From NCBI GenBank assembly GCA_015490455.1, contig WFXU01000028.1:1-61512 (forward strand): a DNA stretch of 61,512 nucleotides, in the 5' to 3' direction. The DNA is from Hyphomicrobiales bacterium (lineage in GTDB: Bacteria; Pseudomonadota; Alphaproteobacteria; Rhizobiales; Devosiaceae). The notes below the pieces were generated by a model. That model did no database searches. It was not told where the DNA came from and saw only the letters and a program-made list of their open reading frames with translations. This document shows positions 8,016 to 52,370 of this stretch, piece by piece. The position numbers and the translations under genes were made by a program. Each line of letters starts with the position of its first letter. The stretch's first letter is position 1.

Positions 8016-8163
8016 ACTCCCCTTAGGTGGGGCAAATCAGCCCATAGCTTTAAGTTATGGCGCTTGCCCAACCAGCCAGACTCGCGCTTTCGCACCGCGC
8101 CTTGTTAGAGAGGACTGATTTGACTTCAAAATGGTTCAAAATAATCAGGGAAAAGCTCTAAGC
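8016..8163 (-). repeat. Partial copy (E1) of a TIR-bounded repeat, second copy at 50798-51068
   Basis: On the minus strand this reads GCTTAGAGCTTTTCCCTGAT, then TTGAACCATTTTGAAGTC, AAATCAGTCC and a GC-rich core, ending at CCCCACC. The same order of blocks occurs at 50798-50940. Internal pairings CAAATCAG (8033-8040) with CTGATTTG (8115-8122), and GGGCAA with TTGCCC, are conserved or nearly so. Only one terminal end is present; the other half of the element is lacking. Confidence 0.75.
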
Positions 8164-48050: not shown

Positions 48051-50726
48051 TTAAAATCTAACATTTTCTAATTTTGCCAACTCCGCTTCAATCGCCTTTA
48101 TTGCTTCATCTGCTTTTGCCCCGTTTGGGCCACCGGCTTGCGCCATATCAGGGCGCCCTCCCCCGCCCTTGCCTCCCATAATGGCTGAGCCAATTTTTAC
48201 CAATTTAATTGCATCAAATTTATTAAGTAAATCATTAGTCACGCCAACAATAATGGCGCCTTTACCTTCATTCTTTGTGGCTATGGCTACAATTCCTGAA
48301 CCAAGCGATCTTTTACCCTCATCAACCAAAGCTTTAAGATCTTTAGGGGCTATTTCTGCAACACTTCGGCCTAAAAATTTAATTTTGCCAATATGTTTAA
48401 CTAAAGAGCTACTATTTTTATTAGAAGCGCCCATTGCCAGTTTCTTTTTGGCTTCAACTAATTCTCTTTCAACTTTCTTTTTCTCTTCAACCAATAAATT
48501 AGCCCTGTTAACTATCTCCTTTATGGGGCTTTTGAAAAGAAAAGATAATTTTTTTAATTTTTCTTCCTGTTCCTTATAATATTGGCGAGCAGCCAGGCCG
48601 GTTAGCGCTTCAATTCGTCGCACGGCTGAAGCGATTGAACTTTCCTGAATAATGCAGATTATGCCAATATCGCCAGTTCTCTTCACGTGCGTTCCTCCAC
48701 ATAGTTCCATAGAAAAACTGTCTTCTTCTCCTTCATCATTTATGGTTTTACCCATAGAAACAACCCGCACTTCATCGGCGTATTTTTCGCCAAATAGCGC
48801 CATTGCACCCGCCTTTCGCGCTTCCTCAATTCCCATTAAACGAGTAGTTACTTCAGAATTTTGCAAAACCATCTCATTAGCAATCTGCTCAACCCTGTTA
48901 ATTTCCTCCTCACTCATTGCCTTAGTATGGGCAAAGTCAAATCTTAATCTTTCCGCATCAACCAAAGATCCCTTTTGCACCACATGTTTTCCTAAAACCT
49001 GTCTTAAGGCGGCGTGTAACAAATGAGTGGCCGAGTGATTTGCACGAATTTTATTACGATTTTTGCTATCAACCCGCAGTTCTAAACCCATTCCCCTTCG
49101 TAAATTACCCTTTTTAACCTCAATATGGTGGACAAACAAACCATCTAGCTGTTTAGTGACATTGGTAACTTCTACCAGCAAATCTTCTCCGACAATTTGC
49201 CCAACATCACCAACCTGTCCGCCACTTTCGGCATAAAAGGGCGTCTGATTAAGCAGCAAAAATCCGCTCTCCCCCTCATTTAACTGGTCAATCTGTTGCC
49301 CATTTTTTACAATGGCCAACACTTCACCCTGCGCTACCTCCTTATCATAACCCAAAAATTCTGTTGGCTGATTATTCTGCAAAATTTCAAACCAAACCTT
49401 CTCAGTAGCGCTTCCTCCAGCCCCTATCCAATTTTTTCTTGCTTCTTCCTTTTGTCGAGCCATCGCGTCCTCAAAACCTGCTAAATCTACATTGATGCCG
49501 CGATGACGCAATGCATCTTGCGTTAAATCAAGCGGAAAGCCATAAGTATCATAAAGCTTAAAGGCGGTCTGCCCATCAAGCATATCTCCCTTTTTAAGAT
49601 TAGCAGTTTCTTCTTCCAAAATTGCCAAACCTCTATTTAAGGTTTGCAAAAAACGCCCCTCCTCAAGCAAAATAGTTTCACTAATCATATTTTTGGCTTC
49701 GATTAGTTCCGGATAATGCTGCCCCATTTCGTTAATTAAGACTGGAACTAGGGAATGAATAATTGGCTCTTGCGCGCCAAGTAGGGTTGCGTGGCGCATG
49801 GCGCGACGCATTATACGCCGTAATACATATCCCCTACCCTCATTAGAAGGCAAAATCCCTTCAGCTATTAAAAAACTCATTGAGCGTAAATGATCGGCTA
49901 TGACCCGAAAAGAACTTTTGTTCTCTTCATTCATATCCACCTTAAACGAATTTAGCGCCGCCCCAATTATATTTTTGAACAAATCAATATCATAAACATC
50001 GTGCTTATTTTGCAAAATGGCCGATATTCTTTCTAATCCCATGCCGGTATCAATTGATGGGTGGGGTAAATTTACTCTTTTCTCCTTGCTTATCTGTTCA
50101 TATTGCATAAATACCAGGTTCCAAATTTCAACAAATCTATCACCATCCTCATTTGCACTGCCTGGGGGACCGCCAAAAACCTCTTCGCCATGATCATAGA
50201 AAATTTCCGAACATGGACCACACGGCCCCACATCACCCATAGACCAAAAATTATCGGAAGTAGAAATAGGAATTATTTTATCTTCACTTAAACCAGAAAT
50301 TTTGCGCCACAAATTAAAAGCAACATCATCCTCACTATAAACCGTTACCAATAATCTTTCCTTTGGCAGGCCATATTCTTTGACAACTAAATTCCATGCC
50401 AGCTCAATCGCTCTTTCCTTAAAATAATCGCCAAAGGAAAAATTACCAAGCATTTCAAAAAAGGTTAAATGGCGCGCAGTAAAGCCGACATTATCTAAAT
50501 CATTATGTTTACCGCCAGCTCTTACGCATTTTTGCGAAGTTACAGCCGTTGAATAGGGACGTTTTTCAACACCGGTAAAAACATTCTTAAACTGCACCAT
50601 GCCGGCATTGGTGAACATAAGGGTAGGATCATTGGTAGGCACAAGCGGGCTGGAAGGCACCTCCTCATGCCCCTCCTTTACAAAATAATCCAAAAATTTA
50701 CTGCGAATTTCATTTACACTAGCCAT
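48051..50726 (-). CDS. alaS: Alanyl-tRNA synthetase
   Basis: 891 aa from ATG at 50726 ([20 protein letters not shown]). An upstream in-frame ATG at 50780 adds 18 residues not seen in the family. Class II motif region [14 protein letters not shown], editing domain [13 protein letters not shown] with [13 protein letters not shown], and the C-terminal glycine-rich [16 protein letters not shown] (DHHA1) are intact. It lies next to recA, as in many Rhizobiales. Confidence 0.97.
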
Positions 50727-50797
50727 AATCAAACCCAAAAAGAGCTCAGGAGCCCAAAAAATTTCATTGCTTCTTATCAACTATTATAGGCTCATGT

Positions 50798-51068
50798 CTA
50801 GAGCATTTTCTGTTATATTGAACCATTTGATGGAGTCAAATCAGTCCAGCTGCAAGGCGCGGTGCGCGGCGCGATCTGGTTGATCGGGCAAGCGCCGGAA
50901 CCTAAGCTAGATGGGCTTATTTGCCCCACTTAAAGGCGGTTTTTCGTGCTTTGTAAGGCTTTGTTACATTCCGCTTGGGTCAGTTGGACAACGGCGCGAA
51001 ATGTGCCTTTTCAGCAAACGCGAAAAAACGCTTCAAACATCCTCCAATCTAATCAGGAAAAGCTCTAG
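50798..51068. repeat. TIR-bounded 271 bp intergenic element (E2)
   Basis: The ends CTAGAGCATTTTCTG and CAGGAAAAGCTCTAG form a 15-bp inverted repeat with two mismatches. About 140 bp at the left half matches the minus strand of 8016-8163, including TTGAACCATTT, GTCAAATCAGTCC, CAAGGCGCGGTGCG and GGGCAAGCGCC. It is more GC-rich than its surroundings and codes for nothing long. No clear target duplication was seen. Confidence 0.75.
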
Positions 51069-51146: not shown

Positions 51147-51178
51147 GAGCGGCAATATTAGTTAAAATATTGCCGCTC
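51147..51178 (-). terminator. Terminator after recA
   Basis: A perfect 13-bp stem (GAGCGGCAATATT and its complement) with a six-base loop lies 16 bp past the recA stop; on the minus strand it is followed by TTATTTTATC. Confidence 0.88.
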
Positions 51179-51193
51179 ACTTCTAAAATATTA

Positions 51194-52285
51194 TTATTCT
51201 AAATTTTCAATTTGTGTATTTTGTGTATTTTTATCTTCTTTAATTGTAAGCAATTCTTCATCGGAAAGTAGACCGGCACTTTCCCTAATACCCTGCTCAA
51301 TAATAGCGGCAATCTCTGGATTTTCTTGCAAAAATTGACGGGCATTTTCCCGCCCCTGCCCTAGCCGCTGGCTATCATAAGAAAACCAGGAACCTGATCT
51401 TTCAACAATACCGGTCTTAACTCCAAGATCAAGCAACTCACCAGTTTTAGAAATGCCCTCACCATAAATAATATCAAATTCCACTTGGCGAAATGGTGGG
51501 GCTAATTTATTTTTAACAACTTTGACCCTTGTTTGATTCCCTACAACTTCATCCCTATCTTTAATCGCGCCAATGCGCCGAATATCAAGGCGAACAGAAG
51601 AATAAAATTTAAGCGCATTACCCCCTGTGGTAGTTTCGGGAGATCCAAACATAACACCAATTTTCATACGAATTTGGTTAATAAAGATAACCATTGTTTT
51701 TGAGCGCGAAATAGAGCTTGTTAATTTACGCATAGCCTGACTCATTAAGCGCGCTTGCAAGCCGGGAAGATTATCTCCCATCTCTCCCTCAAGTTCAGAT
51801 TTTGGCGTTAGCGCGGCAACACTATCAACCACCAAAACATCAATCGCGCCTGAACGAACCAAAGTATCCACAATCTCCAGCGCCTGTTCGCCAGCATCAG
51901 GTTGTGAAATTAGCAATTCATCAACATCAACCCCTAATTTACGCGCATAAATCGGATCTAAAGCATGTTCCGCATCAATAAAGGCGCAAATTCCGCCCCT
52001 TTTTTGCGCTTCGGCAACAACATGCAGCGCTAAAGTTGTCTTGCCTGAGCTTTCAGGTCCATATATTTCAATAATCCTACCCTGTGGCATTCCACCAACG
52101 CCAAGCGCAATATCAAGACCAAGCGAGCCGGTTGGTATTGTCTCAACTTCCATAATGGCCTTATCGCCCATTTTCATAATTGAGCCTTTGCCAAAAGATC
52201 GCTCAATTTGCCCCAAAGCTGCTTCTAGCGCTTTATTTTTATCCATTGAACCTCCCTCAATCACTTTTAGCCTTGATTGTGTCAT
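51194..52285 (-). CDS. recA: Recombinase RecA
   Basis: 363 aa from the ATG at 52285. A second ATG two codons earlier (52291) abuts AAGGAG, leaving no spacing, so 52285 is preferred. Walker A is [29 protein letters not shown] and loop L2 ([16 protein letters not shown]) are conserved. It carries out strand exchange and induces the SOS response. A possible LexA site lies about 86 bp upstream. Confidence 0.98.
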
Positions 52286-52370
52286 TACCATCTCCTTATT
52301 TCACGCCCAGCCAATTAGTGCAATAATTTCTATATTTTTAGCACCGAAATATTTAATATGTGCTTGCTTT

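Follow-up and report, generated by a model that had tools for sequence, protein, structure and literature searches.

A TA-flanked, MITE-like element with a conserved two-arm interior between recA-like and alaS-like genes of a Hyphomicrobiales bacterium

The window analysed here (61,512 nucleotides from a Hyphomicrobiales bacterium of the Devosiaceae) was found to contain a TA-flanked insertion, element E, with a recA-like gene on one side and an alaS-like gene on the other. E showed several features by which MITEs are recognized: terminal inverted repeats (TIRs), a target-site duplication, occurrence in multiple copies and the lack of a transposase gene. We consider it probable, though well short of certain, that E is a non-autonomous MITE-like element that is moved by DDE transposases and carries a conserved structured module of two arms. 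The ends and the mode of insertion of the E family are MITE-like, and comparison of the copies points to what is unusual about it, namely structural conservation of the interior combined with exchange of the ends.

The element and its insertion site

The features of E and its surroundings are as follows.

8020–8160, minus strand: truncated relative of E with one TIR and a left arm (left arm 8024–8130, 33.5 bits)
48051–50726, minus strand: alaS-like gene, named by reading (ATG at 50726; the ORF call is 48051–50780 with a TTG start)
50799–51067, plus strand: element E including the flanking TAs (265 bp between the TAs; recA-like and alaS-like genes on either side)
50801–50828, plus strand: left TIR of E, 5′ side of stem P1 (from P1 covariation in 27 copies; inner limit approximate)
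50829–50932, plus strand: left arm of E in plus-strand sense (covariance-model match, 63.9 bits)
50933–51038, minus strand: right arm of E, the module reverse-complemented (placed via alignment to relatives; limits approximate)
51039–51065, plus strand: right TIR of E, 3′ side of stem P1 (from P1 covariation; inner limit approximate)
51147–51178, minus strand: terminator-like hairpin behind the recA-like ORF
51194–52291, minus strand: recA-like ORF

A sequence-only reading had proposed a 271-bp element at 50798–51068 with 15-bp inverted ends. Such ends are present (13 of 15 positions match, 87%) and the element is real, with its exact unit corrected to 50799–51067, that is TA (50799–50800)-GAGC…GCTC-TA (51066–51067). 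ORF calling gave no frame of 100 aa within E. The predicted fold of E was better than that of all 200 dinucleotide shuffles (z of −4.5 with RNA and −4.6 with DNA parameters).

E was shown to be absent between recA and alaS in all four congeneric genomes compared, with TGTCTAG kept at the site. The empty site was ATGTCTAG in three congeners and CTGTCTAG in one, and the window reads ATGTC-TA-E-TA-G; the unoccupied CTAG of all four congeners, compared with a TA on either side of E, thus reveals a target-site duplication. One more genome of the family (L271) was also without E and had the site ATGTCCAG. Of 13 copies with TACC-type ends, six had the same triplet (TNA) on either flank. In Thalassospira mesophila, the 10 full copies examined showed 89–100% identity to one of them (L185) by BLAST, and 20 full-length pairs of ends were found in Thalassospira besides single pairs spanning 227, 144, and 68 bp. 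Mobility of the E family is well supported by these sequence comparisons, i.e., by the empty site, the TA flanks, the multiple copies and the near-identical copies in T. mesophila.

E is located just upstream of the alaS-like gene, the ATG of which lies 72 bp from E. A minus-strand TATAAT was noticed within 50783–50798, 10 bp off the end of E and upstream of alaS; it was absent from the output of the promoter scan. Judged from this motif, the insertion of E may have altered the upstream promoter of alaS.

In its own genome, 10 matches to E were obtained at E ≤ 0.001, E itself and the relative at 8020–8160 included. Two of the others are near-full-length copies (93 and 83%), and the remaining matches are partial or diverged. 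The relative, which the earlier reading had placed at 8016–8163, is real and partial; it lies on the minus strand and matches positions 2–139 of E at 80%, and no second TIR was seen on reading 8020–8160. Folded alone, 8016–8163 was no more stable than its shuffles (z of −0.25; 78 of 200 shuffles equally good), and this copy is therefore no basis for the structural claim. The genome also contained 65 12-mers similar to TAGAGCWTTTTC (at most one mismatch) compared to 16 for the reversed pattern, an excess beyond the share of the E copies; other TAGAGC-ended repeats may exist there.

A conserved pair of arms between changing ends

Complete copies were found to consist of a TIR of 25–30 bp around two homologous hairpin arms of approximately 103 nt, usually inverted relative to each other. 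The internal pairing proposed from the sequence alone belongs to the left arm; the complete layout comprises a TIR stem and, inside it, two arms homologous to each other. A model built solely from left arms detected an adjoining second arm on the opposite strand: 134 matches from 72 sources were aligned, comprising 74 first arms, 52 second arms and eight self-antisense readings, which were set aside. All 52 arm pairs were convergent (plus, then minus); however, the pairing script accepted a second arm solely on the opposite strand, so that the inverted arrangement is partly built into this count. The second arms scored 22.8–74.5 bits, and 41 of the 52 scored above the highest self-antisense reading (34.8 bits). 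The right arm of E itself was not recovered by the left-arm model at E ≤ 1; it was recovered in relatives. Both arms share unpaired letters in the loop beside a 7-bp stem, namely AGG (0.95–0.97 in first and 0.92–0.98 in second arms) and, in the same loop, ACG (0.88–0.99 and 0.92–0.96, respectively), and more weakly AAG.

The plan was shown to vary. Some elements with matched ends have a single arm (164 bp, L109; 144 bp, L195 from Thalassospira), and in two of the 10 T. mesophila copies (L189 and L208) one arm is reversed (99% identity over 97 bp) within copies that are otherwise alike, the covariance model reading both arms of L189 on one strand. The inverted arrangement is thus usual and not obligatory. 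In one copy (L026), two more short palindromes were observed between the arms (129–154 and 166–189, in the interval 129–189).

Across 59 elements, TIR identity was 93% (0.928) between the two ends of a copy and 38% (0.383) between the left TIRs of different copies, the within-copy value being conditional on the choice of these elements for matched ends. The 56-nt left apex showed 78% identity between copies in the same set, a value inflated by the search pattern. The end types seen were TAGAGC, TAGACC, TAGCCCG, TACCAA, TAGTGGC, and TAGCACC. Cores 86–87% alike were found with unrelated outer ends in L139 (TACC type, with TGA on both sides) compared to L165 and L094 (TAGAGC type); the ungapped TIR identity of 23% in this comparison is in part due to an offset, and the inner 13 or so bases are similar. 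These comparisons suggest that it is the arms, and not the ends, that the element keeps.

A non-redundant set comprised 41 copies plus E. In the left arm (41 copies), 84.3% of the cells were paired, and 198 cells were changed on both sides compared to 63.6 in shuffles. The covariation score was 0.396 compared to at most 0.188 when the pairing was slid, although a slide of +1 kept 143 both-side-changed cells. Stem c is invariant in the left-arm apex, which is no evidence, the apex being fixed by the search pattern. The TIR stem P1 (27 copies, including two of other classes) was 95.7% paired, a percentage inflated because most of these copies were chosen for matched ends, with 178 both-side-changed cells compared to 46.2 in shuffles and a score of 0.704 compared to at most 0.134 when slid. 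All these counts are inflated by relatedness, the cells not being independent; the slid controls retain that relatedness. The sequence-only reading had made its proposal depend on additional copies and on compensatory changes in the stems: many copies were found by the apex pattern and by genome searches, and compensatory changes, overlooked at first, are abundant in the TIR stem and the left arm.

A folded strand tolerates G-U pairs, and on the opposite strand the same change appears as A-C. In the alignment not fitted to structure, G-U exceeded A-C in the left arm (76 vs. 28; 27 elements vs. 5, with 10 ties). The right arm gave 25 G-U vs. 58 A-C on the plus strand, which in the sense of the arm itself becomes 58 G-U vs. 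25 A-C (21 elements vs. 4, with 17 ties). The right-arm count omits three mostly G-U columns as wrong pairs, and keeping them reverses the plus-strand count. Ratios from the model-fitted alignment were 143:19 and 114:28, G-U being favored there by construction. For P1 the counts disagreed (33:16 when not fitted to structure, 40:31 otherwise). The excess of G-U in each arm's own sense points to selection that probably maintains each arm as a fold of one strand; folded ssDNA would favor G-U as RNA would. Of the two possibilities left by the earlier reading, a structured RNA or a palindromic mobile repeat, mobility is well supported by the empty site in all four congeners, the TA flanks and the multiple copies, and structure is supported by covariation; what folds is probably a single strand, either RNA or ssDNA.

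Distribution and candidate transposases

Among 61 genomes searched (its own and 60 relatives), the element was found in four, i.e., its own and three from other families of the order, and in none of the four congeners. An apex pattern of 20 fixed bases matched at least 121 places in at least 120 loci of named genomes. Of 121 places, 18 were listed without flanks and 77 had matched ends (at least 20 of 24 positions, 230–340 bp apart); among the matches listed, TA was present at both ends in 61 of these 77 copies, and the set of 59 elements used above is these 61 minus two mis-anchored ones. The titles of the matches listed were alphaproteobacterial or plain "Proteobacteria" with one exception, a match (L178) in a MAG titled Anaerolineae, which is possibly a binning error, the alternatives being transfer or chance.

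Of 289 genomes sampled from the class, 29 contained the module according to the left-arm covariance model (E ≤ 1e-6), as did 19 of 299 sampled from the phylum. The genome of E is counted in both, and 13 of the 19 were outside the class; copy numbers from this model are lower bounds, at most 13 candidates being scored per genome. In five copies from other classes that were read (L311, L312, L314, L316, L317), the ends matched at 19–20 of 20 positions and were 264–287 bp apart. A second arm scored 40–48 bits in three of them and 28.5 bits, which is background level, in L317; none was found in L316 by the left-arm model. One of two scans of viral sequences gave a single matching contig and the other none, a phage collection gave no match, and two plasmid records gave partial matches over four queries. 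The gene context of the elements was assessed from crude ORF calls (48 of 59 usable), which are too noisy in GC-rich DNA to support a claim.

The host's own genome contains an IS630-type IS of 1051 bp (L183, 978–2028; contig C67, 14323–15373) with TA flanks and TAGAGC-type GAGCGAGATGATTTTAG ends. Its reading frame is split over frames, for which decay or frameshifting are candidate explanations. The IS end TAGAGCGAGATGATTTTAG is alike at 17 of 19 positions to the end of an Anderseniella copy (L062). In two other host genomes (G065 and G064), IS630 ends beginning TA-GAGC were found; among the IS ends that could be examined in other hosts, TAGAGC-like ends were seen solely on these. The ends of an IS5-type IS in G064 (TAGGGTCCGGACYCA) resemble those of element L313 of another genome (TAGGGTCCGTACTCA). 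The TIRs of the resident IS (its own IS630 and the IS630 of the two hosts) are similar and not equal to those of the elements, and no IS was found to have a TIR identical to that of an element residing in its own genome. IS ends were compared where they could be reached; the PF13358 and PF01609 matches of Inquilinus (G062) sit at contig ends.

DDE_3 (PF13358) matches were present in three of six genomes, PF01609 matches in four of six and PF13340 matches in four of eight, the last with no match in the element's own genome. When 215 sequences (1.16 Mb) were searched for inverted ends bounded by TA and spaced 600–2600 bp apart, one convincing IS emerged, the IS630 of the own genome. The hit at L096 was rejected as an IS: it combines the end of an element with a further TAGAGC end, and the ORF between them is unrelated. 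In Thalassospira, neither a DDE_3 match nor a pair of element-type ends at IS distance was found, and its IS5-type IS was rejected as a source of ends, its ends being unlike those of the Thalassospira elements. TACC-type ends at 83 positions in four genomes formed pairs 259–264 bp apart, with a few at 58, 67, and 362–628 bp, and no pair 700–3000 bp apart (38 of the 83 positions computed, 45 read by eye). The assignment to DDE transposases (IS630-like, and one IS5-like) is partial.

Interpretation and relation to known repeats

In the reading we prefer, DDE transposases supplied in trans would use the TIRs as DNA ends and insert the element at TA (C-TA-G). In the interior, two homologous hairpin arms, as a rule inverted to each other, would fold as a single strand, and the arms would be retained while the ends are swapped between transposase systems. 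With inverted arms, a read-through transcript of either direction would reach a sense arm first. The folded molecule would be RNA rather than ssDNA, and the arm would be of use to the element; most likely it would fold within transcripts as an RNA module that reduces damage to the host gene or is itself protected. The flipped arms weaken the case for such a module in read-through transcripts, and they also argue against a strict need for inversion. A wider version of this idea, which we put forward tentatively, is a structured nucleic-acid parasite tied to no single transposase, whose RNA-like arms may have spread through the phylum by repeatedly gaining new TIRs (IS630-like, IS5-like, TNA-duplicating) and would act as folded RNA.

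The same data were weighed against three other explanations. The ends that match within copies while copies differ, the lack of a consistent wobble bias in P1, and arms that flip without visible decay would all suit a plain MITE with functionless arms, in which template-switch correction of palindromes during replication copies one stem side to the other and mimics compensation. Such correction predicts equal numbers of G-U and A-C, in contrast to the 76:28 and 58:25 of the arms in their own sense (the latter with the three-column caveat), and it leaves unexplained the unpaired loop letters that are common to both arms and present in other classes; we regard this explanation as unlikely. The G-U bias fits folded ssDNA as well as RNA, and an inverted hairpin pair puts one sense arm on each strand, as would suit an element whose inverted arms are recognized as ssDNA hairpins like the REP pairs in REPINs, with the TIR/TA ends being secondary. 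Against this stand the long matched ends at 77 of 121 pattern places (among the matches listed) and the empty site, which reveals a TA-flanked insertion; long matched ends with TA-flanked insertion are the pattern of a DDE rather than a Y1 enzyme, and we hold this account to be improbable. The third explanation, a normal small RNA gene of the host or a cis-regulatory RNA repeated by chance, would agree with the conserved fold and with the position of E just upstream of the alaS-like gene. The lack of E at this site in all four congeners speaks against it, and no Rfam match at gathering score was obtained over a copy in the window or in 10 copy-bearing loci; we give it almost no weight.

Above gathering score, no Rfam family matched over any copy examined; the best score inside a copy (Atu_C8, 19.4 bits compared to a gathering score of 50) was poorly aligned and was rejected as a relative. 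Elsewhere in the window, an FMN riboswitch was observed (1840–2013, 119 bits). No description of this repeat family was found in titles and abstracts, subscription papers being mostly outside this coverage. In the parts of the sources available to us, RUP, the repeat unit of pneumococcus, is described as a non-autonomous element of 107 bp with IS630-like TIRs, TA termini and a predicted stem-loop (PMC3049150, PMC2229807). It thus resembles the E family in being small and non-autonomous and in its TIRs, TA termini and predicted fold; it differs in its length, and a homologous, covarying arm pair and end exchange are not described for RUP in those parts. Correia/NEMIS and other bacterial MITEs, as far as covered there, share the TIR, terminal TA, target duplication and stable fold with the E family (PMC2229807, PMC10969869), whereas in the E family it is the interior that is conserved, and the TIRs differ from copy to copy. 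The CcrM-associated intergenic repeats of Caulobacter (CIR) are, in the part of the source available, approximately 110 bp with two folded arms, internal GANTC and no TIR (PMC2229807). The E family likewise is an alphaproteobacterial intergenic repeat with two folded arms, but it has TIRs and does not show the internal GANTC of CIR as so described: in 59 elements GANTC occurred at 0.44 compared to an expected 0.96 per element, with 25 of 26 sites near the ends. RIME (Rhizobium intergenic mosaic elements) are repeats with two large palindromes and in this respect like the E family, by description and not by sequence. REPINs are non-autonomous inverted hairpin pairs moved by a Y1 enzyme (RAYT); by description, the E family shares the inverted hairpin pair and non-autonomy, and REPINs differ from it in being much shorter and Y1-moved.

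Small bacterial repeats are usually classified by their ends, and their interior is regarded as filler. In the E family, conservation across classes lies in the structure of the interior, whereas the ends of any one copy vary together. If the wider, tentative version of the idea is true, the folded core and not the ends would define this mobile element. If confirmed, the E family would allow a clean test of the role of a structured core in an enzyme-less transposon, and it could unite many unannotated folded intergenic repeats into one family.
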